Source of the DNA: Prevotellaceae bacterium
GTDB lineage: Bacteria; Bacteroidota; Bacteroidia; Bacteroidales; Muribaculaceae
NCBI GenBank assembly: GCA_021772015.1
Contig: JAETNS010000002.1
Coordinates: 124,001 to 188,000, forward strand
Length of the DNA stretch: 64,000 nucleotides
Direction: 5' to 3'
A program made the translations under genes and the position numbers. How positions within the stretch are numbered: the stretch's first letter is position 1; each line of letters begins with the position of its first letter. The notes beneath the pieces are model-generated. The model saw only the letters and a list, made by a program, of their open reading frames with translations, made no database searches and was not told the DNA's origin. Shown here piece after piece: positions 52,137 to 63,613 of this stretch.

Positions 52137-54443
52137 TTAGAGTCTTATTTTTGTGGTTTTGACGGCAGGTATGTTTAGGATGTAGTCACCGGCTGGGAGA
52201 CCTGTGATGTGCGAGAGGTTTTTGCCGCTTCGTACCATGCGTCCTGTCATGTCGTAGACCCTTACCTCATATTCTCCCGTCAGGCCGGATATGCTGACTA
52301 CGCCATCAGCCACGGTCAGATTGACTGTTTGTGCCGCTATATCCGTGATTCCCGACTTCGGTAGCTCCTCGATATTCTTGAACTCTTTCCAGAAATGTGC
52401 AGTCCGATACTTTTCCGCGCTTCCCTCCGGTACCCGTAGCGTCGCATTTGCGTATACCCGTGAAGCGAAGGGATTATAGTATGAATAAGAGTCCCATACG
52501 CGATTCACTATCGGAGGCTCGGCAGCAAGGCAATTTACGGTAGTAAGGTCGGAGAATCCGATAAACGAGCTGTGGTCCATATACATGACACTTGCGGGGA
52601 TATTCAGCGTCTTTGCGTTGGTTTTCAGCAATGTGCCTGCTGCTATCCCTATAACGGTGTATTCCCTACCGTCAAACACCGTTTCGGGCACACTGAAGCT
52701 CTCCTCGTCGGCATTGGATGGTTTGATGGATGATGCAAGCTCGCAAGTTCCATTTTCGGAAATGATGTTGTATTCAAATTGTCCTTCAACTATTTTGTTG
52801 GGCGTTATGCAGTCGGGCGCGGTCGGAGTCCATGGGATAATGAGTTTGAATTTAGACCATTGATTGTCATTGCGATAACGGTCTATGTCGTTTTCGTCCA
52901 CAAAGAGCCGCCCCGATTCATAGGCCTGTGTCGAGAACTCTCCGGTCCCCGCGCCGTTCAAGTAGATATTTTTTATTTCCTCCGATGAACATCTGACTGA
53001 GCTTATATTATTTAGGTATAATGTAGATACGATGGAGTTCCCATTGCGAGCTCCTAAATAATATCCTACAGGTGTCTCCTTGCCTGTCTTAGGGTCAACA
53101 TATACCACATCGCGTCCAAGATAGATTGTGCGTGCGCTGCAATCGCCGTTGTGCAAATTACAGAATGGTTGTAATTCCATCGTATCGTTGGTCTTTAATG
53201 TCCCACTACCGCTTGGTATGACAAGAGTATCCATAAAATAGAAAGCACCATCCCATATCTGGCGTACTGTGGGTGGTATCCAAAGATTTCGGATAGATGA
53301 ATTATAGAAAGCCTCCCAATCAATGGTTTCCACACTCTCGGGGATGTCGATGTGGGTTATGTTCTTGCAGCCGTCAAACGCTTTACGTCCTATTGTGCGA
53401 ATAGGGTACGGCATATCTTCGGGAAATTCAAACTCTTTTTTTGCAACAGGCACTTGTCGCAATGTCAATCCTATCCGTAAGATGTACTCATACAGCACAC
53501 CATCATGGAAATAATAGTTTGGATTGCCCTCTTCTACATTGATGGCTTCAAGGTTTTCGCAATTCCCGAATACTCCGGCATCATAATCAAGCAGTGCTCG
53601 CGATAAGGTAACCTCTTTGAGATTTGAACATCCATTGAACGCCATCAGCCCAATAGCATGGGTTGAAGAGAGATTTGCGGAGGTCAATGAGCTGTTCATA
53701 AACGCCTGCCTTTCGATGTCGGTTATCTGTGACAGGTCCATTTCAGTGGCATAGCATCCCATAAATGCCTCTTTACCTATTGTAGTAATGCCCCATGGCA
53801 GTGTTACCGACTCAAAAGCCTCGCCGCATGATCTGAAACAATAATCGTTCACTTTTGTCAATCCATAGGGCAACTCCAGATTGCGTATCAACTCACCATT
53901 GAGGTGCATCCGCCCTCCGGGATTGGCGCCCGGGCCACGGAAGTCGATCTTGCACCATGCATCCAGGTCGGTAATATACAGGTCGTCGACTTCAGTAGTG
54001 GCAGAGAAGTAATCTTCTGCATTGTCGGTACCTGTAAAATATTCTTCAGCAAAAGCAGAGTGCTCAATATACCGAACCGTTGATGGGATGGTCACCGATA
54101 TGTTGGGCAGTGAATAATTGGTTAGATCGAATGCATGGGGTTCAATCCCGACCACGCCTTCCTCCATGACGACATCGCCAAGGTATGGGCTGTACCGGAA
54201 GGCATCTTCTCCGACGATTACCGGGCCATAAAGTCCGTGGCCGGGGATTGTGACACTGGTAAAGTCGTTGTAGTTGTCATCGTGGACTACGCGGGAAAAG
54301 GTGTCATAACCGCCCCAATCGTTGGGTATGTGCGCCTCCTCGAAGATTAGTCCGCTGTCGTAGTCGGTGTAACGGTCGCCCTCGGCGGCGTACATGTTCA
54401 GGGCAAGTGTAAGCACGGCGGCCAACAAAATTAGTTTTTTCAT
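52137..54443 (-). CDS. BspA-like leucine-rich-repeat surface protein
   Basis: ATG at 54443 (MKKLILLAAVLTLALNMYAAEG); LRR_5 repeats; T9SS-like C-terminus ITGLPAGDYILNIPAVKTTKIRL. Confidence 0.9.
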   Translation of the reverse strand: MKKLILLAAVLTLALNMYAAEGDRYTDYDSGLIFEEAHIPNDWGGYDTFSRVVHDDNYNDFTSVTIPGHGLYGPVIVGEDAFRYSPYLGDVVMEEGVVGIEPHAFDLTNYSLPNISVTIPSTVRYIEHSAFAEEYFTGTDNAEDYFSATTEVDDLYITDLDAWCKIDFRGPGANPGGRMHLNGELIRNLELPYGLTKVNDYCFRSCGEAFESVTLPWGITTIGKEAFMGCYATEMDLSQITDIERQAFMNSSLTSANLSSTHAIGLMAFNGCSNLKEVTLSRALLDYDAGVFGNCENLEAINVEEGNPNYYFHDGVLYEYILRIGLTLRQVPVAKKEFEFPEDMPYPIRTIGRKAFDGCKNITHIDIPESVETIDWEAFYNSSIRNLWIPPTVRQIWDGAFYFMDTLVIPSGSGTLKTNDTMELQPFCNLHNGDCSARTIYLGRDVVYVDPKTGKETPVGYYLGARNGNSIVSTLYLNNISSVRCSSEEIKNIYLNGAGTGEFSTQAYESGRLFVDENDIDRYRNDNQWSKFKLIIPWTPTAPDCITPNKIVEGQFEYNIISENGTCELASSIKPSNADEESFSVPETVFDGREYTVIGIAAGTLLKTNAKTLNIPASVMYMDHSSFIGFSDLTTVNCLAAEPPIVNRVWDSYSYYNPFASRVYANATLRVPEGSAEKYRTAHFWKEFKNIEELPKSGITDIAAQTVNLTVADGVVSISGLTGEYEVRVYDMTGRMVRSGKNLSHITGLPAGDYILNIPAVKTTKIRL

Positions 54444-54812
54444 CTCCTTTCGTGTTAAGGATGACCTTGACACCCCCGGGAGGTCTTTGATAACGGGATT
54501 AAAACGGTATGCGTGGGGTGTCTTATTGTTGCCCGTCCCACTTATAGAGGCTTCTCGCATTGCCTGTCACCGTAGAACGGACAACGCAGAAGCCCACGCA
54601 TATATGAAACAGCCCCGGCAGAGACTGCGCGTCTGCCGGACGTTGTTGCAAATTACCATAGGCATCTATCGTTGCCTCATCCTTGACGGTGACGAAATTT
54701 TGCGAGAATTCCTATAAGTCAAGAATCAAGCGTCAATAAACGCATTTCAAAAATATGTCCGCCTCCCCTCCCGCTTGGCCCACGACCCGGGCCCCTGCGT
54801 GGAGGTCGGCAG
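54444..54812 (-). ncRNA. candidate large structured RNA, copy A
   Basis: About 365 nt from promoter TTTG-N19-TAAATTTG (-7 box at 54816-54823 on -) to the LRR start codon; aligns through its length with copy B, with shared blocks and covarying helices. Confidence 0.65.
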
Positions 54813-55028
54813 CTGCAAATTTACACAAATATTCATAGACACCAAAAATATTTCATCAGTTCAATGGTAAAAGGCCTGAATTTTTCCCGGACACAGATGT
54901 GTGGCGTTCGTAACCGTGATTTCTTCATCTTCCTTCTGATCAAACTCTACGCATGAATTTTAACAGTTGGCCCTATCCATTCTTGACATATGCACCGGAA
55001 TTTCGGCTTGACCCATATAAGACACGAA

Positions 55029-55062
55029 AAAACCGCAGAACTAATTGATAGTCTGCGGTTTC
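55029..55062 (-). terminator. tRNA-Ser terminator
   Basis: AAACCGCAGACTATCAATTAGTTCTGCGGTTT on minus strand. Confidence 0.7.
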
Positions 55063-55127
55063 TTTACTTTGTAAAGCGGCTTACACCGATTTGTCCGTCT
55101 TTGACCGATTTGGGTCTTTTAAGGTTG

Positions 55128-55214
55128 CGGAAAGACAGGGATTCGAACCCTGGGTACCCGTAAGGGTACAACGGTTTTCGAGACCGTCCCGATCGACCAC
55201 TCCGGCATCTTTCC
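55128..55214 (-). tRNA. tRNA-Ser(CGA)
   Basis: RC: GGAAAGATGCCGGAGTGGTCGATCGGGACGGTCTCGAAAACCGTTGTACCCTTACGGGTACCCAGGGTTCGAATCCCTGTCTTTCCG; long variable arm, anticodon CGA. Confidence 0.96.
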
Positions 55215-55451
55215 TTGGATTCGCGTCGCCGACCATAGGGGGTGACACTTTCGTGTTTCCTGCATGGGCGGTGTTTAGACGCGTGGCTGTGTGTGGCCAA
55301 ATGCGGGGCAAAGTTACGAAGTTTTTCTTGATTTGAAAATTTTTCGGATGTTTTTTTCTCTTTTTTCAGTCGGAAGAAGCGTATTGGCCTATGGCGGCTT
55401 GCATTGTCGGATGATTGTGGTTAACTTTGCTGTTTGAACAATCATTCATCC

Positions 55452-55525
55452 ATAAGTAACCGGTCAAAATAATTTTGAACAGCTACTTATGACAGTGAGG
55501 ATGAAATAATTTTGAACAGTTAGCT
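55452..55525. repeat. compact palindromic copy of the pyrG-upstream repeat plus one extra arm
   Basis: ATAAGTAACCGGTCAAAATAATTTTGAACAGCTACTTAT followed by GAAATAATTTTGAACAGTTAGCT directly before the ribE ATG. Confidence 0.7.
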
Positions 55526-56131
55526 ATGTTTTCCGGAATAGTTGAGGAGGCTGCGGTTGTCGCTGCCTTGAATAGAGAGGGAGGGAATCTCCATCTTACG
55601 TTGCGGAGCTCGTTTGCCGACGAGCTTAAGATCGACCAGTCGGTTGCCCATAACGGTGTGTGCCTGACGGTGGTGGCATTGAATGGCGACGGCACTTACA
55701 CGGTGACGGCCATCGAGGAAACCTTGCGGCGTTCCAATCTTGGTGGGCTTGAGGTCGGTGATCTGGTGAATGTGGAGCGTTGCATGGTCATGAACGGCCG
55801 TCTTGACGGGCATATCGTCCAAGGGCATGTCGACTGCACCGCCCGCTGCGTCGATGTCGAACAGCTCGACGGGTCGGCGTACTTCAAGTTTGAGTATGAC
55901 GCTGACCGCGAGATGGCGCGTCAGGGATATGTGACCGTCGAGAAAGGCTCGGTCACAGTCAATGGCGTGAGCCTGACGGTCTGTGACTCGCAGCCTGATT
56001 CATTCCGGGTGGCCATAATACCCTACACGATGGAACACACCAATTTCTGCCGCATACAACCCGGAACAATTGTAAATCTCGAATTTGACATCATCGGAAA
56101 GTATATCGCCCGCATCGCGGCCCTTTCCTGA
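55526..56131 (+). CDS. ribE: riboflavin synthase alpha subunit
   Basis: MFSGIVEEAAVVAALNREGGNLHLTL...DGHIVQGHVDCTARC...VEKGSVTVNGVSLTVCDSQPDSFRVAIIPYTMEHTNF. Confidence 0.96.
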   Translation: MFSGIVEEAAVVAALNREGGNLHLTLRSSFADELKIDQSVAHNGVCLTVVALNGDGTYTVTAIEETLRRSNLGGLEVGDLVNVERCMVMNGRLDGHIVQGHVDCTARCVDVEQLDGSAYFKFEYDADREMARQGYVTVEKGSVTVNGVSLTVCDSQPDSFRVAIIPYTMEHTNFCRIQPGTIVNLEFDIIGKYIARIAALS

Positions 56132-56164
56132 CACCATACATTCATCCCATCCTTATATAGATTT

Positions 56165-58585
56165 ATGATATCCATGAAATTCAGAATCACAGCCACGACG
56201 GCTATCGCCATGATGTCCGTCACGGCATTCGCTTCGCTTGTCACCGAGCCTGACCAGAAACCATCCGGACCGCCACAAAGCGTCAGGGCCGAGAATGTAG
56301 GGCCGGAGGGCCGGACGGTGGTTGTCACCGCCCTTACCGACGATATCTTCCGCGTTGACAATTACCTGCCGGGGCAACAGCCGCCGCAATCCAAGACCGC
56401 TGTTGTCAGAGAGGGATTTTTCACCGGCGGCCTTATGGAGAATCCGGCGATGGGGGTGCTGACATCCCCCAACGGTACGGTAGCCACTCTCGACAAGAGG
56501 ACCGGAGCCGTGACCATCACAGCCGGAAAGGGGAAGGGGATCTATGACAACGGGGAGCGTCCGACAGACGCTTCCGGACGCAAGACTTTCTCGCTCTCCC
56601 CGATAGGAAGCGGGGACGCTTTTTATGGCGGGGGAGAGAGAGGCTACAGCCTCAATCTTGCCGGGGACACCCTGGTCATGTATAACCGTCAGAATTACGG
56701 TTACACCGGCAATGATCCCCGCATACGCCAGATGAACATCACCATGCCGCTGCTTGTGGCTCCCGAAGGTTACGGTATAATGGTCGACGACTACGCCGCC
56801 GCCGAGATGGTTACATCCAATCCGCTGACATACTCATCCGAGTCTCCCGGATCCCTATCATATTACTTCTTCGCTTCCCCCGAGGGGATGCCCGGTGTGG
56901 CCCGTCAGGTTGCTGACCTCACCGGTCATCAGGAACTTCCGCCATTCTGGTCGTTGGGATACATATCCTCGAAATACGGCTATCGCACGGAGGCCGAGAC
57001 TCTCGGTGTGGCCGACACCCTGCGCCGCGAAGGCTATCCCCTCGACGGCATGGTGCTTGACCTCTACTGGTATGGCAAGGAGCAGGACATGGGCCGTCTG
57101 GCCTGGGATCCCGACCAGTGGCCCACATACAGGAAGATGCTCGCAGACCTCAAGCAGCGCGGCGTGAACATGGTCGCCATTTCCCAGCCTTACGTTCTGC
57201 GTAATGGCCGGGGAATCGACAATTACGAGTACCTCGCCCCGCGCGGGATGTTCGGCAAAGACTCTGTCGGGAATGTCAAGGAGGTCAAGATATGGGTCGG
57301 AGAAGGAGGTATGCTCGATGTCTCCAATCCCGAGACCCGTCAGTGGCTGCGCGAGCGTTACAAGGCGTTGACCGACAGCGGTATGACCGGATGGTGGGGA
57401 GACCTCGGCGAGCCGGAAGTGCATCCCGAAGGTATGTACCATCACAATGGCCTCACCACCCGCCAGTACCACAATCTCTACGGCAACGACTGGAGCCGCA
57501 TAATCTATGACCTCTTCAAGGAGGAATATCCCGACACCCGCCTGATGACCCTCATGCGCGGCGGCACAGCCGGGCTGCAGCGGTTCTCCGTCTTCCCCTG
57601 GTCTACCGATGTCTCCCGTTCATGGGGCGGCCTTGAACCGCAGATCCGCATCATGCTCAACTCCGGGCTTAGCGGTCTGGGCTATATGAGCCATGATGTA
57701 GGCGGTTTCGCGGTCGATCCGGCCAACCCGGTCGATCCGGAACTGTATGTCCGCTGGTGCCAGCTCGGTCTCTTCTCGCCGATACTGCGCACCCACGCCC
57801 AGCAGTACGCCGAGCCTTACAAATATCCCGAACACCGCGACATATTGCTGCCGCTGATCAAGGAACGTTACCGCTGGCTTCCCTACAACTACACCCTCGC
57901 GGCAGATAACTCCCGTTTCGGACTTCCTCTGGTGCGCCCGTTAGGCTATTATGACGAGGATCCCGCGTTGCTCGACACCATAAGCGACCAGTATCTCTGG
58001 GGGCGCGACGTGATGGTGGCTCCCGTGCTGACGCAGGGGGCGACCTCCCGCAAGGTTGTCTTCCCCTCCGGCACATGGGTCGACATCAACAATCCCGCCA
58101 ACATCCACAAAGGTGGAAGCGAGGCTGTAGTGGATGCGCCCCTCTCCGTCCTGCCGCTCTTCGCCCGTGCCGGAGCGTTGCTCCCCAAGGCCGATTACAA
58201 GATGCGCAACACCGGCGACTACGATCCCTCGCGCTACACCATCGACTATTATCCTGTCGAAGGGGAATACGGTCAGACATCCTACACCCTTTTCGAGGAC
58301 AACCGCCTCTCGGCGCAGTCTCTCATGAAAGGGGAATACGCCCTGATCGACATCACTGCAGACAATACTGCCGACGGAATCCTTCTGAAAGTCGCCAAGC
58401 CCCAGATGACTTACAAGGAGATGCCGGCCCGGCGCACCCTGACATTCGTAATCCACAATGTCAGCCGTCCCGCGAAAGTCACCTCCGCTGCAAAGATCAA
58501 ACAGAGCTACGACAAGAAGACCCGTACCCTGACTGTGACCGCCTCTTCGGTTGAACTTCCTCTGGAGATCAACATTGCCAAGTAA
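56165..58585 (+). CDS. glycoside hydrolase family 31 protein
   Basis: LPPFWSLGYISSKYGYRTEAETLGVADTLRREGYPLDGMVLDLYWYG; GMTGWWGDLGEPEVHPEGMYHHNG; LNSGLSGLGYMSHDVGGF. Confidence 0.95.
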   Translation: MISMKFRITATTAIAMMSVTAFASLVTEPDQKPSGPPQSVRAENVGPEGRTVVVTALTDDIFRVDNYLPGQQPPQSKTAVVREGFFTGGLMENPAMGVLTSPNGTVATLDKRTGAVTITAGKGKGIYDNGERPTDASGRKTFSLSPIGSGDAFYGGGERGYSLNLAGDTLVMYNRQNYGYTGNDPRIRQMNITMPLLVAPEGYGIMVDDYAAAEMVTSNPLTYSSESPGSLSYYFFASPEGMPGVARQVADLTGHQELPPFWSLGYISSKYGYRTEAETLGVADTLRREGYPLDGMVLDLYWYGKEQDMGRLAWDPDQWPTYRKMLADLKQRGVNMVAISQPYVLRNGRGIDNYEYLAPRGMFGKDSVGNVKEVKIWVGEGGMLDVSNPETRQWLRERYKALTDSGMTGWWGDLGEPEVHPEGMYHHNGLTTRQYHNLYGNDWSRIIYDLFKEEYPDTRLMTLMRGGTAGLQRFSVFPWSTDVSRSWGGLEPQIRIMLNSGLSGLGYMSHDVGGFAVDPANPVDPELYVRWCQLGLFSPILRTHAQQYAEPYKYPEHRDILLPLIKERYRWLPYNYTLAADNSRFGLPLVRPLGYYDEDPALLDTISDQYLWGRDVMVAPVLTQGATSRKVVFPSGTWVDINNPANIHKGGSEAVVDAPLSVLPLFARAGALLPKADYKMRNTGDYDPSRYTIDYYPVEGEYGQTSYTLFEDNRLSAQSLMKGEYALIDITADNTADGILLKVAKPQMTYKEMPARRTLTFVIHNVSRPAKVTSAAKIKQSYDKKTRTLTVTASSVELPLEINIAK

Positions 58586-58609
58586 AGCGTTTTCCGGAAC
58601 ATATTTAGG

Positions 58610-58653
58610 ATAACAGATTTGACTATACTACATAGCATAGTCAAATCTGTTAT
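58610..58653 (+). terminator. GH31 gene terminator-like hairpin
   Basis: ATAACAGATTTGACTAT-ACTACATAGC-ATAGTCAAATCTGTTAT, 17-bp perfect arms. Confidence 0.65.
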
Positions 58654-58678
58654 AGTTATATAGGTTTTTAAAAATTAA

Positions 58679-59574
58679 GAGCTTGTTTAAAAACTAATGT
58701 GAATAAAAAAAGAACATCGGCCGATAAATCAGCCAGTTATCTTTTAAGGATTGTTTAAATAGAAGAAGAAACCTAAACAAACACAAAAAGATATGTATCT
58801 GACAGATTTGACCGATGCTCAGAAGGAATATATAAAAGGAACAATTCTCATGGGAAATTGGCGCAGCAAATATGATTTCTTTCTCATACTCGATGCGGTT
58901 GTCTATATTGATGTCAGCGGTTGCCAGTGGCGACTGTTGCCCGAGGAATATCCCAAGTGGCAGACCGTCTACTATTACTTCAGGCGATGGGGAGCGATGG
59001 ATGCTTTCGCCGAACTTGAGGACTGCCTTGTGCAGACGCTTCGTCTCAAAAGAGGCGAAGCTGCGCATCCCACAATCGGGGCGATTGACTCTCAGAGTTC
59101 CCGGCCGGCACTGCCTCGCTCGCAAAAAGGGATTGACGGCAATAAGAAAGTCAAAGGCGTGAAACGCAATATAATAACCGATAAGGACGGTGATATTCTG
59201 GAGGCTTCCACGACTCCTGCCAATGTCCATGATTCCAAACCGGCATACGCTCTTGTGGCTCTGCTCATCGTAGCTTTCCCATGGATTAGACGCATTTATG
59301 CCGATAGGGGATATCGCGGAAACTTTATCGAAAAAGCCAAGCACGATTTCGGTATTGACGTTGAAATTACCCATTCAAATTATTCAGGAAAGTTTGTTCC
59401 GGCAAAGAAGCGATGGGTTGTTGAAAGGACTTTCGCATGGCTTGAGAACTTCCGAAGGCTGTGCCGAAACTATGAAGAAACCACAGAATCGGCCAACGAA
59501 ATGCTTATGGTGGCCGCAGTCGTTATTACTCTTCGTAAACTCACTTCTGTTAACAATCATTTTTAAACAACCTC
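58679..59574 (+). mobile_element. complete IS5-family insertion sequence (896 bp)
   Basis: TIRs GAGCTTGTTTAAAAACTAATGTG / GAGGTTGTTTAAAAATGATTGTT; flanking TAA duplication at 58676-58678 and 59575-59577. Confidence 0.9.
58793..59566 (+). CDS. IS5 family transposase
   Basis: CQWRLLPEEYPKWQTVYYYFRRW; GAIDSQSSRPALPRSQKGIDGNKKVKGVKRNIITDKDG; YADRGYRG; KRWVVERTFAWLENFRRL. Confidence 0.95.
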   Translation: MYLTDLTDAQKEYIKGTILMGNWRSKYDFFLILDAVVYIDVSGCQWRLLPEEYPKWQTVYYYFRRWGAMDAFAELEDCLVQTLRLKRGEAAHPTIGAIDSQSSRPALPRSQKGIDGNKKVKGVKRNIITDKDGDILEASTTPANVHDSKPAYALVALLIVAFPWIRRIYADRGYRGNFIEKAKHDFGIDVEITHSNYSGKFVPAKKRWVVERTFAWLENFRRLCRNYEETTESANEMLMVAAVVITLRKLTSVNNHF

Positions 59575-59693
59575 TAAATGGAAAAATGACACCAAAGGGA
59601 TAAAAATCAACAACTGCCTGAAAATACGAATTGCTCCTAATATTTAACGTTTTGGATTTTGTTATATTCAAAATAATAAAGTAATTTTGTAGC

Positions 59694-60060
59694 GCAGGCC
59701 GTCTTGCAGAAGCCCCGGTCTGGGGCAAGAGGGATGGGCTGTGATAACATTATAGAAAGCGTTTATCCGCGCTGATTTCTTGACTCTCTGAAATTCTCGC
59801 AAAATTTCTTGTCAAAGTCAAGGATCGAGCAACGGTAGATGCCCGTGGATATGTAATAAGAATGCACTCTACAGAGTCTCGTTAGAGACATGTTTGGGAG
59901 CAAAATTGCATATATTAGCGTGGGCTTCTGCGTTGCCATCCGACTTTGACAGGGCAATGCGAGAAGCCTCAGAGAGTAGGATGGCAACAGATACAGATTC
60001 CTACGCTTTTCGTATATTATTATAGGCCAAAGAGGGGATGACTACGGCCTCGAGGATTAT
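59694..60060 (+). ncRNA. candidate large structured RNA, copy B
   Basis: About 365 nt from promoter TTTG(59658-59661)-N20-TAATTTTG(59682-59689) to the AbiGi-like start codon; homologous to copy A. Confidence 0.65.
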
Positions 60061-61323
60061 ATGAGTATAAACGCCAATATATTTTGGCATCAGACCAATG
60101 CCAAGGCATTTTATAAGATACTGTCATCACATTGTTTCAGATATGCATATTCAAAGGAATCTCCCATAAATATGCCGGAAGATGTAGAGTATGCTTTCCC
60201 TATGATCAGTTTCGCTCATTTGGCATTCTGCGAGTTGGAATACTATCTTGGGTCTTATGGGAACTATACTATTGGCATGAAATATGATTGGGCGGTCCAA
60301 AACGGGATAACGCCAGTTTTATATTTGTTTAAGTCATCTTCAATTAATTGTAAGGTGATTGATATTGAAAGTGTTGACGAGAGCGACCTGAATGCTTATG
60401 TCAAAAATTACCAAGGACCGTTAAAATCACGGGGATATCATAAATATAAATTTTATAATGAGAGGGAATATCGTTTCGTCCTGTCAAAAGCCAGATGTGA
60501 TACGGAGAAACTAAAATTCGTGCTTCGTCAAGATTCCCGTACAAGGGAATATGATGAGTATAAAGAAGCTCATGATAATCTATCATTATTGCCTGAGTGC
60601 TTCAATGTTAAGTTTCGCTTGGAAGATGTTGCCTACTTGATTATTCCTGAAGTTAATGGTCGGATTAAGCAGTTGTTGAAACAAATCTTTGAATCTAATC
60701 CCACTATCAAAATATTCACTATAACGGAGGCAAAGGTAAATATTCTTGGCAAGTTTAATGATGTCAAGATGACTGCAGCAGAAATAAAATCATATCAACG
60801 TAAACAGTATACAACAACTCACAAGTTTAAATTCGATTTACCACAGCGTATAGAATTTGATCCGGCCATGCGCTATATCTATCATGTTTTGATGGACTTC
60901 TCTTATGATTGGGTATGGTATAAAGGAATGGGTCATTATATCAAGGATAATAATATTAATTCGGACTTTTTCAGAAAAGATAAGATCAATCTTGAATTGG
61001 TAAAATCTAAAGATGTGGGCAAAAAAGACCTTTCCAACGCTTATCAATTAAGAGCAAATACCATTCGCATAGCAATCGATAACCGTAATTTGGGGTCTGA
61101 TGATGTCAAAATGGAGTATATCGGAGACATTATTGCGGAGAGTTTTGGCTATTCTATCATAGACTGCCGTGATGATACAATATATATTGAATATGCGCAT
61201 AAATCCAGAAGATCGATGATGCTTAAAGTCTTGATTAATTGCAATAAAAATCTGTTCATTGACTTATTGGAGACCTTACGCGACAATTTGAAAACTAATC
61301 AATATATCTACGAAAATGAGTAA
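60061..61323 (+). CDS. AbiGi-like abortive-infection family protein with extra C-terminal region
   Basis: FWHQTNAKAFYKILSSHCFRYAYSKE...PMISFAHLAFCELEYYLGSYGNYTIGMKYDWAVQNGITPVLYL...YKFYNEREYRFV resembles the AbiGi antitoxin family; about 180 residues beyond it unassigned. Confidence 0.6.
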   Translation: MSINANIFWHQTNAKAFYKILSSHCFRYAYSKESPINMPEDVEYAFPMISFAHLAFCELEYYLGSYGNYTIGMKYDWAVQNGITPVLYLFKSSSINCKVIDIESVDESDLNAYVKNYQGPLKSRGYHKYKFYNEREYRFVLSKARCDTEKLKFVLRQDSRTREYDEYKEAHDNLSLLPECFNVKFRLEDVAYLIIPEVNGRIKQLLKQIFESNPTIKIFTITEAKVNILGKFNDVKMTAAEIKSYQRKQYTTTHKFKFDLPQRIEFDPAMRYIYHVLMDFSYDWVWYKGMGHYIKDNNINSDFFRKDKINLELVKSKDVGKKDLSNAYQLRANTIRIAIDNRNLGSDDVKMEYIGDIIAESFGYSIIDCRDDTIYIEYAHKSRRSMMLKVLINCNKNLFIDLLETLRDNLKTNQYIYENE

Positions 61324-63613
61324 TACAATTATTAAAAGTCTAGGGCTGTTGATAGTGATGCTGGCGATGTCTCTCCCGATCGCTGCCTATGATTTTGAGG
61401 TCAATGGGATCTGCTATACGATTACTTCTGAATCTGACAAGACTGTTGAGGTGGTATCCAATCCTGATAGCAATTATTCAGGAACGATTATTTTGCCTGA
61501 GCGTGTGGAGTACAATGGAGGGGAATACACCGTTACAAGTATCGGGATTGAAGCATTCTACGCGTGTAAAGATTTGAAAAGTGTTCATATTTCCAATACG
61601 ATCAGTTGGATCAAAGACAGGGCCTTTAAAAATTGTGGGATTATCAATTCTATCTATGTAGGAACAGGTATTCGAAAGCTAAGTTCTAACTCCTTCCGAG
61701 ACACTCATGTAGAAAAGGTGTTTTGGCTATGCAATACTCTTCCAGAAGCCTATTATGATGAACTTTGGAGGAGTGCATCTATTAACCACTATGCAGCATT
61801 AGATTATCCATTTCTCAGTTCTATGTTCTCTGTTGATGGATTAGTGTATGTGCCAGTTAGTCCTTCTGATAAGACCTGTGATGTTGTGGATTGCGAATAC
61901 TCTTCTCAATCTACAAATCTCACTGTCCCAAAGGTTGTTGTCAATAAGGGAATTCAAATGGAAGTCAATAATATTGGCCAGAAAGCATTCTGTCATAACG
62001 AAGGTGTGGTTTCTGCACAAATTTTGAATAGCGGAAGTATTGGATGTGGAGCCTTCGAGGATTGCATTAATATGGAATTAATATCTATAGGACCAGACGT
62101 GCGGACAATAGGAAGTGAAGTTTTCCGGAATTGTTCTTCATTAAGATCCATAATAATTCCGAAAGGAGTTATGACTATTGGAGATGGAGCATTTGATTAT
62201 TGTACGTCTCTATCTGATGTGATCTTTGAGGATAGCCAATTTGGGGAGATTTCCTGGCCAATTGGGGTAACTTATTTATTAAATGATAGTGGTCCTGATA
62301 GCAGTCATTATTCTTTCTATGTTGTAGAAGGAGATGAAATTTCATGTCTGATTAAATACTCCCATAATGGAGGTTTTAATCCATCATATGTCAGTCTTGA
62401 TTTTCTTTCTTCTAGTCCTGTTGGTGGTTTGAATAATTGGTATAATGAAAACCTGATGAGTAAAGATTGCGCTGAGAATGATTCTATAGCATTTAGATAC
62501 GTATTTAAAAAGTCGGGGCTAGCAAGCTTGAGGATAGTCTCAAGGAGCAGCCTGCGAATTATTAACACGGATATCTCTATTACCGGGAACAATAATAATC
62601 TATATTTGGGAAAAGGTAAATGTCTGTATGACTACTCAGAATCATTGAGAAGCTTTTCGCCACTGTTCGAAGATTGTTCCCTTGATGATATATATGTTGG
62701 TCGGAAATTGATATATGATGCAACTCCCGGGAGTGGTTATTCTCCGTTCTATCGTAATGCTTCACTTCGCGTTGTCGAGATCTCCGACAAGGAAACTCAA
62801 ATTTACGATAATCAGTTCTACGGATGCACCGGATTGAAGACTCTAAAGCTGGGTAATAATATTCGTTTTATTGGTGATTTTGCCTTTTCGGGATGTTCGT
62901 CTCTGGATTATTTTTCCGCAGGATATCATCTAGAGAGTATTGGAAAGGAGGCGTTCTCGGATTGTATTGGGCTTACTAAATTTTACTCATATGCTCCCCT
63001 CCCACCTCTCTGTGGGGATCAGGCTTTGGACGATATAAACAAGTGGAAGTGCACACTTATGGTCCCAAACCAGAGTGCTGATGAATATAAAGCTGCTGCT
63101 CAATGGAAGGAGTTTTTCTTTGTAGATGAAATGGAGACAGTATTGGTTGCCATGATTAATCTCAATGCGGAAGAATTGGAACTTTTTATGGGAAAAACAT
63201 TCCAACTCGAAGCATCGGTTCTTCCTGTCAATGCAACAAACCAAAAGCTTTTATATACAAGTTCCAATCCCGATATTGTCTCCGTTGATGAGGGAGGACT
63301 ATTGACAGCAATTAAACCGGGAGAGACATTTATCACGGTTAATAGTGCGGATGGTAATGCTACTAAGAAATGTAAAGTTAGAGTTGCTGAAGAAGCTGGA
63401 ATGGAAAATGTGAAAGATGACAATAATTTAGTTCTGACTCGAACAGTTAATGGATATTGTGTGAATGGTGCTTTGGGTTCCATATTGGAGGTGTATTCCA
63501 TTGACGGACTCTTGCTCCAAAAGTATAGCCATTATATGGAGGATGAGATTTCACTATCTCCCGGCATTTATATCATCCGTATGGACGATCATCTCTGGAA
63601 AGTGAAATTTTGA
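61316..63613 (+). CDS. BspA-like LRR surface protein with bacterial Ig-like group 2 domain
   Basis: Signal peptide then YDFEVNGICYTITSESDKTVEVV; LRR_5 repeats; FQLEASVLPVNATNQKLLYTSSNPDIVSVDEGGLLTAIKPGETFITVNSADG (Big_2); T9SS-like C-terminus. Confidence 0.92.
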   Translation: MSNTIIKSLGLLIVMLAMSLPIAAYDFEVNGICYTITSESDKTVEVVSNPDSNYSGTIILPERVEYNGGEYTVTSIGIEAFYACKDLKSVHISNTISWIKDRAFKNCGIINSIYVGTGIRKLSSNSFRDTHVEKVFWLCNTLPEAYYDELWRSASINHYAALDYPFLSSMFSVDGLVYVPVSPSDKTCDVVDCEYSSQSTNLTVPKVVVNKGIQMEVNNIGQKAFCHNEGVVSAQILNSGSIGCGAFEDCINMELISIGPDVRTIGSEVFRNCSSLRSIIIPKGVMTIGDGAFDYCTSLSDVIFEDSQFGEISWPIGVTYLLNDSGPDSSHYSFYVVEGDEISCLIKYSHNGGFNPSYVSLDFLSSSPVGGLNNWYNENLMSKDCAENDSIAFRYVFKKSGLASLRIVSRSSLRIINTDISITGNNNNLYLGKGKCLYDYSESLRSFSPLFEDCSLDDIYVGRKLIYDATPGSGYSPFYRNASLRVVEISDKETQIYDNQFYGCTGLKTLKLGNNIRFIGDFAFSGCSSLDYFSAGYHLESIGKEAFSDCIGLTKFYSYAPLPPLCGDQALDDINKWKCTLMVPNQSADEYKAAAQWKEFFFVDEMETVLVAMINLNAEELELFMGKTFQLEASVLPVNATNQKLLYTSSNPDIVSVDEGGLLTAIKPGETFITVNSADGNATKKCKVRVAEEAGMENVKDDNNLVLTRTVNGYCVNGALGSILEVYSIDGLLLQKYSHYMEDEISLSPGIYIIRMDDHLWKVKF

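Follow-up and report, generated by a model that had tools for sequence, protein, structure and literature searches.

The two related RNA elements described here, A and B, appear to represent a previously undescribed class of cis-acting 5′ leaders of the Bacteroidales that, judging from sequence comparison, probably works as a transcription-attenuation switch. Both elements lie in the window, the 64,000-nt stretch of a Prevotellaceae bacterium genome analyzed here, to which coordinates refer unless another record is named. The existence of the class and its role as a 5′ leader are strongly supported on comparative grounds, as is its predicted layout: a leader of ~320 nt that starts at a promoter and runs to a U tract, a same-strand gene without an additional promoter, and two competing sets of helices. 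Such a layout suggests an RNA that would snap between two shapes and so let transcription stop or continue.

A, on the minus strand (54822-54501), aligns lengthwise with B, on the plus strand (59683-60012), and blastn of the genome with B as the query recovers A at E=2.7e-15, together with further copies. The original prediction was right that the two are homologous, and the promoters that it named are also present. Its length of ~365 nt needs to be divided: the shared stretch is real but consists of a ~320-nt leader, which runs to the U tract, and of a small hairpin ahead of the start codon. Where two copies had been claimed, the genome has eight. Both elements fold far better than their dinucleotide shuffles (z-scores of -7.2 for A and -6.7 for B). 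In A, the clean U tract has been lost (54501-54520, CGCATACCGTTTT), so A may be read through constitutively. Just upstream of leader B lies an IS4/IS5-type transposase gene (DUF4096 + DDE, 58793-59566). The promoters, leaders, and downstream genes are as follows.

59657-59689, plus strand: promoter of B, TTTG (to 59661), N20, and TAATTTTG (-7 box, 59682-59689); from sequence, with TAnnTTTG upstream in the family
59693-60012, plus strand: leader RNA of B, U tract included, its putative start placed from the -7 box; from alignment, folding, blastn, and the covariance model
60061-61323, plus strand: first gene after B, AbiGi-like protein of 420 aa (Pfam PF10899, E=9.5e-15)
61316-63613, plus strand: second gene after B, overlapping the first, BspA-type LRR protein of 765 aa with a Big_2 domain (PF13306, E=9e-46)
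54816-54846, minus strand: promoter of A, TTTG (54846-54843), N19, and TAAATTTG (-7 box, 54823-54816); from sequence
54501-54815, minus strand: leader RNA of A, with the degenerate U tract; from alignment, folding, and the covariance model
52137-54443, minus strand: gene after A, BspA-type LRR protein of 768 aa starting MKKLILLAAV (PF13306, E=4.6e-45)

The family is widespread. A covariance model of 29 copies (R1), whose construction used stems 1 and 2 and the terminator but not the rod (all described below), finds the eight copies of the source genome at E<=1.3e-26. It matches 38 of 39 Muribaculaceae-like genomes, at 1 to 18 copies each, and, across the order Bacteroidales, 23 of 149 genomes (about 20 other families); outside the order, 396 sampled genomes of the phylum yield one clear member, from the same class. 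Based on a pattern scan, carriers include Paraprevotella clara, Hallella mizrahii, Phocaeicola oris, and Bacteroides caecigallinarum, as well as Parabacteroides, Prevotella, Paludibacteraceae, and Marinilabiliaceae records. One copy (L210, 415-632) lies on an 85-kb contig that IMG/VR classes as viral (IMGVR_UViG_3300021319_000137), and one weak covariance-model match (L083) was discarded as spurious. None of the covariance models of Rfam 15 matches A or B even at E<=5, and at Rfam gathering scores the window contains tRNAs only. ARAGORN finds no tmRNA, and A and B match neither tRNA nor tmRNA; likewise, no match to tmRNA, RNase P, 6S RNA, or group I or II introns is obtained with Rfam and ARAGORN. 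The family is not described in the published literature searched, a comparison that covers main-text passages of PMC8040213. That study, a screen of human microbiomes, presents many unnamed structured-RNA candidates that lie upstream of genes, some of them in Bacteroidetes; none in its main-text passages shares the architecture or gene range of the leader, and its unnamed candidates could hold fragments of the family. In total, the family is apparently undescribed and outside every known family, probably an attenuator leader whose architecture and range of genes are unusual. The comparisons proposed with the original prediction (against Rfam, across Bacteroidales genomes, and for covariation in a wider alignment, which is strong among 80 homologues) thus bear out its central idea of a paralogous structured RNA of no known class with covarying helices, now found in many families. 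What it had missed are the position of the leader before protein genes, the eight copies, the long-range rod, and the two partly incompatible folds.

The evidence for a leader begins with position. Promoter to U tract, the element spans about 310 to 325 nt around a core of ~150 to 240 nt, and in six aligned copies the -7 box lies 306 to 323 nt from the end. TAnnTTTG precedes 114 of 127 members (10.7 expected from shuffling), at a median of 87 nt from the core, and in 124 of 128 members the 10 nt after the last helix hold at least six T residues. A same-strand ORF (ATG start, >=50 codons, <=260 nt away) follows 125 of 132 different copies, most commonly 50 to 80 nt from the U tract, compared with 56 of 125 in a divergent-ORF control; between the U tract and the ATG, promoter motifs are not enriched (4 versus 4.4 expected). 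The order of promoter, leader, and gene on one strand is that of an attenuation leader, and so is the G+C-rich helix directly before the U tract and the gene. Could the ~320-nt RNA instead be the product, a stable trans-acting noncoding RNA that ends at the U tract, and could the next gene owe its expression to leak-through only? The discrete promoter, the terminator-like end, the near-constant length despite divergence in those six copies, and the very stable fold would all suit such an RNA. We nevertheless consider it improbable, given that a same-strand gene without its own promoter nearly always lies at a narrow distance, that incompatible pairing partners, unneeded in a simple RNA gene, flank the terminator, and that a conserved G-rich hairpin and complementarity to the 3′ terminator strand (T3) are found beyond the U tract.

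The genes that follow the leader are accessory genes, mostly for surface or secreted proteins (LRR proteins and lipoproteins), plus AbiGi, AbiH, DUF2971, and others. The 112 downstream proteins match 57 Pfam families, which rules out the regulon of a single-pathway riboswitch; nor is a ribosomal-protein gene found downstream, as a ribosomal-protein leader would have. BspA-type LRR_5 is the commonest family (14 as the first gene), and single or few cases are DUF2971, AbiH, a kinase, FkbH, C10 peptidase, fimbrillin, and vWA by Pfam. The downstream set further includes AbiGi and, judged by eye, a GIY-YIG-like protein. Proteins resembling DUF2971 or AbiGi seem to recur after the leader (e.g., L104, L112, L114, L118, L127, and L150), with three DUF2971 matches at E<=1e-3 in Pfam and the others judged by eye. 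The source genome has about 12 LRR_5 genes, and four of its eight leaders head an operon containing one, either directly (after A and the copy C21) or as a second, overlapping gene (after B and the copy C10). The start of the LRR gene is overlapped by a 132-aa first gene in the C10 operon (L221, 684-3571) and by the AbiGi-like gene in the window (60061-63613), which suggests translational coupling in both. The same gene list bears on whether the leader might be an RNA antitoxin in the style of type III toxin-antitoxin systems, restraining the protein encoded downstream. The order of RNA, terminator-like site, and gene is right for this, and AbiGi-, AbiH-, and DUF2971-like genes are among the targets; however, the core is single and nonrepeated instead of a tandem array of short pseudoknot repeats, the 57 families, most often surface LRR proteins, offer no shared toxin fold, and no ToxN/AbiQ-type family is among the downstream-protein matches listed. 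We regard this explanation as barely credible.

The helices of the leader, with the evidence for each, are listed below; X1, C, and X2 (and their partners X1′, C′, and X2′) are segments of the rod arms, and T5 and T3 are the two strands of the terminator helix.

59759-59770, plus strand: B, 5′ hairpin GCGTTTATCCGC, with a GCGTTTA-like motif conserved in the family (87 of 127 members)
59777-59824, plus strand: B, stem 1 (OFF), TTCTTGAC 59777-59784 with GTCAAGGA 59817-59824; covariation, own-versus-swap p=2e-17
59783-59816, plus strand: B, rod 5′ arm, X1 ACTCTCTGA 59783-59791, C TTCTCGCA 59794-59801, X2 TGTCAAA 59810-59816; duplex energies, covariation
59829-59936, plus strand: B, distal rod (candidate antiterminator), GCAACGGTAGATGCCCGTGG 59829-59848 with GCGTGGGCTTCTGCGTTGC 59918-59936, around a variable hairpin; covariation, p=2e-14
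59918-60006, plus strand: B, predicted terminator helix, T5 GCGTGGG 59918-59924 with T3 CCTACGC 60000-60006, then TTTTC; covariation, U tract in the members counted above
59932-59988, plus strand: B, stem 2 (OFF), GTTGCCATCC 59932-59941 with GGATGGCAAC 59979-59988; covariation, p=4e-16
59945-59977, plus strand: B, rod 3′ arm, X2′ TTTGACA 59945-59951, C′ TGCGAGAA 59958-59965, X1′ TCAGAGAGT 59969-59977; duplex energies, covariation
59976-60004, plus strand: B, local hairpin GTAGGA/TCCTAC, competing with T5 for T3; covariation, p=5e-9
60024-60050, plus strand: B, small hairpin a short way upstream of the start codon, AGGCC..GGCCT with a GGGGA loop (60034-60038); T3 complementarity across the family
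54681-54725, minus strand: A, stem 1, TTCTTGAC 54725-54718 with GTCAAGG 54687-54681; covariation
54687-54719, minus strand: A, rod 5′ arm, X1 ACTTATAG 54719-54712, C TTCTCGCA 54708-54701, X2 GTCACCG 54693-54687; sequence, duplex energies, covariation
54511-54599, minus strand: A, terminator-type helix, T5 GCGTGGG 54599-54593 with T3 CCCCACGC 54518-54511; covariation, alignment
54528-54585, minus strand: A, stem 2, GTTGTCCGTTCTAC 54585-54572 with GTGGGACGGGCAAC 54541-54528; covariation
54540-54572, minus strand: A, rod 3′ arm, X2′ CGGTGAC 54572-54566, C′ TGCGAGAA 54559-54552, X1′ CTATAAGT 54547-54540; sequence, duplex energies, covariation
54463-54485, minus strand: A, small hairpin preceding the start codon, GACC..GGTC with a G-rich loop; G-rich motif scan

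When all column pairs are scanned in 76 rows aligned with R1, the top covarying pairs fall in predicted helices: X1:X1′, C:C′, and X2:X2′, then GCAACG/CGTTGC and GATGCCC/GGGCTTC, all of the rod, as well as stems 1 and 2 and the local hairpin GTGGGA/TCCCAC. Nearly every copy has its own version of X1 and X2, which nevertheless remain complementary to their partners in that copy, and C:C′ is TTCTCGCA/TGCGAGAA in B and CTGGTA/TACCAG in the C10 copy. Over 121 nonredundant copies, the arms form a duplex of -34.4 kcal/mol on average with their own partners versus -17.1 kcal/mol with swapped ones, and the own pairing beats 95% of swaps in 97% of these copies. By this test, stems 1 and 2 and the distal rod are also significant (p values as listed), and the terminator helix less strongly so (p=1e-4). 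In an 80-row alignment (A6), the helices of the ON (rod) set are 86.6% paired versus 36 to 46% when slid (maximum, 45.5%), with 488 cells of double changes versus 186 shuffled, and those of the OFF set (stem 1, stem 2, and terminator) are 95.9% paired versus 38 to 47% (maximum, 47.1%), with 171 cells versus 49. These counts ignore phylogeny, and those of the OFF set lean toward its helices because R1 was built with them. The T5:T3 helix is paired in 100% of cells, in rows fetched with a pattern that covers the GCGTGGG..GTTGC strand and thereby limits its variation (T5 is partly fixed). X2 is poorly aligned in A6 (57% of cells paired), and its support is the alignment-free swap test.

This wider comparison redistributes the pairings first proposed from A and B. 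The helices TTCTTGAC/GTCAAGGA, GCGTGGG/CCCACGC, GTGGG/CCCAC, and GTTGCC..../..GGCAAC are all supported in the wide alignment, the last of these having been put forward as a possible pseudoknot. In contrast, neither GGCTTCT..GCGTTG with CAATGC..GAGAAGCC nor the inner GAAATT/AATTTC hairpin represents the covarying partners; instead, TTCTCGCA covaries with TGCGAGAA and GCAACG..GATGCCC with GCGTGGGCTTCTGCGTTGC. In the helix GGCTTCT..GCGTTG/CAATGC..GAGAAGCC, the 5′ side is constant while the 3′ side tracks the other arm (CTGGTA/TACCAG and CTTCGCAA/TTGCGAAG), so we reject it as the main pairing.

Several copies are rearranged. The 5′ arm of L026 (G012:C3:32498-32756) pairs at -23.2 kcal/mol with its own 3′ arm but at -34.2 kcal/mol with that of L029, a mismatch indicating that paralogous leaders recombine inside the element. 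L032 is a half copy from the variable hairpin onward only, and L033 is a half copy up to the variable hairpin only, whose remnant enters an ORF (VKGKAAVDARGYVI...). The element as a coding remnant was rejected, although L033 runs into an ORF, since many copies have a stop in that frame; a fixed insertion locus was likewise rejected, the copies lying mostly at unrelated sites. In L079, 1.1 kb separates two near-identical short-form leaders (1269-1414 and 2394-2539), each followed by its own copy of one secreted-protein gene, a tandem duplication of leader plus gene. Is the element, then, a mobile DNA repeat or a recombination site (folded DNA resembling attC) that carries promoters and whose RNA structure is incidental? 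Near-identical leaders before unrelated genes would fit, as would the recombination seen in the chimeric L026 and the truncated L032 and L033. Several features argue against it: one strand shows numerous conserved G-U pairs as well as compensations, the orientation relative to promoter and gene is strict, there is a U tract, and blastn of plasmid and phage collections does not find the leader. We hold this reading to be very improbable.

We return to the attenuation switch. GCGTGGG is common to the distal rod and the terminator, GTTGC to the distal rod and stem 2, and CCCAC to the terminator and the local hairpin. Because each strand has two helices to enter, the rod state would free the U tract of a terminator helix and the other state would form it; the sharing of GCGTGGG amounts to a mutually exclusive antiterminator with covariation of its own, as an attenuation leader should have. 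The comparative data thus support two partly incompatible folds: an ON fold, in which a long rod with hypervariable complementary arms would hide T5, and an OFF fold of two stems and a terminator helix. We propose that in the ON state X1-C-X2 would zip with X2′-C′-X1′ into the long rod during synthesis, that the distal rod (GCAACG..GATGCCC with GCGTGGG..CGTTGC) would sequester T5, and that the local hairpin GTGGGA/TCCCAC would occupy T3; with both strands held, the polymerase would read through. In the OFF state, stem 2 (GTTGCC..../....GGCAAC) would invade the base of the distal rod, GCGTGGG would pair with CCCACGC beside the U tract, stem 1 would re-form, and transcription would stop. Stem 1, X1, stem 2, and X2 could meet in the OFF state as a four-way junction, in which case the rod arms need not open fully.

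Energetically, the rod is the lowest-energy nested fold in 125 of 128 copies, and the best nested fold with the terminator forced costs ~15.5 kcal/mol more, in models that cannot keep the rod arms; given this cost, the OFF state would need a pseudoknotted junction or a trigger. That trigger could be a metabolite, an ion, temperature, or a protein. Were X1 and X2 to remain paired beside stems 1 and 2, in the four-armed geometry that the adjoining strands suggest, the terminator state would be the better one by roughly 7 kcal/mol (our rough estimate from summed mean helix energies). Distant short forms of about 150 nt (L076, L078, L079, L082, and L211) carry a hairpin, CTCACGCC-AAAC-GGCGTGGG, in which GCGTGGG can alternatively pair with CCCACGC-TTTTTTT; read this way, the two-fold logic is kept here in its simplest version.

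Against attenuation stand the modest covariation of the terminator helix, the pairing of T3 with the local GTGGGA in expanded forms, the poor U tract of A, and the covariation of T3 with a hairpin loop beyond the U tract, a pairing that can form only after read-through. The last hints at a later role for T3. It is the main reason for retaining the possibility, unlikely in our estimation, that the leader acts after read-through, on translation or mRNA stability, with T3 pairing to the loop of a hairpin ~26 nt before the start codon. T3 pairs better with its own downstream region than with swapped ones (-11.1 versus -9.3 kcal/mol, p=5e-7; reversed control, p=0.09), and a G-rich motif, a median of 26 nt upstream of the ATG, is present in 65 of 104 copies (20.6 expected). 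However, this pairing is short and is weak in many copies, and a purely translational device would not need a near-universal U tract right after GCGTGGG/CCCACGC.

How does the proposed attenuation switch compare with known systems? Like transcriptional riboswitches and other terminator/antiterminator leaders, it has a promoter, a structured domain, competing helices, and a U tract before the gene, but it belongs to no Rfam class, its largest covarying part is a hypervariable self-complementary rod, and its targets are dozens of unrelated accessory families instead of one pathway. It shares with T-box leaders a length of ~300 nt and alternative terminator/antiterminator pairing but has no Rfam T-box match, and no specifier or T-box sequence was noticed; among the target families listed, which are headed by LRR and other accessory domains, there is no aminoacyl-tRNA synthetase or amino-acid transport. 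Kissing RNAs of the CopA-CopT type have two stem-loops whose complementary loops can extend into a four-way junction. The leader family likewise has two such stem-loops; here, in contrast, both loops reside in one molecule, a leader and not an antisense pair, and covary as a pair in each copy. As a long shot, we speculate that the RNA is a bistable four-way junction whose two hypervariable, self-matching loops would give each copy a private address, so that each of the many leaders in a cell would switch independently (or pair with its own kind alone), and that it could be a general gate for surface and defense genes of the Bacteroidales.

An order-wide regulatory RNA without an Rfam entry, present in up to 18 copies per genome, would give dominant bacteria of the gut a further level of gene control. 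A single type of switch would link dozens of poorly understood genes for BspA-type surface proteins and phage-defense-like functions. Since the competing helices give clear mutational predictions, the trigger is directly searchable.
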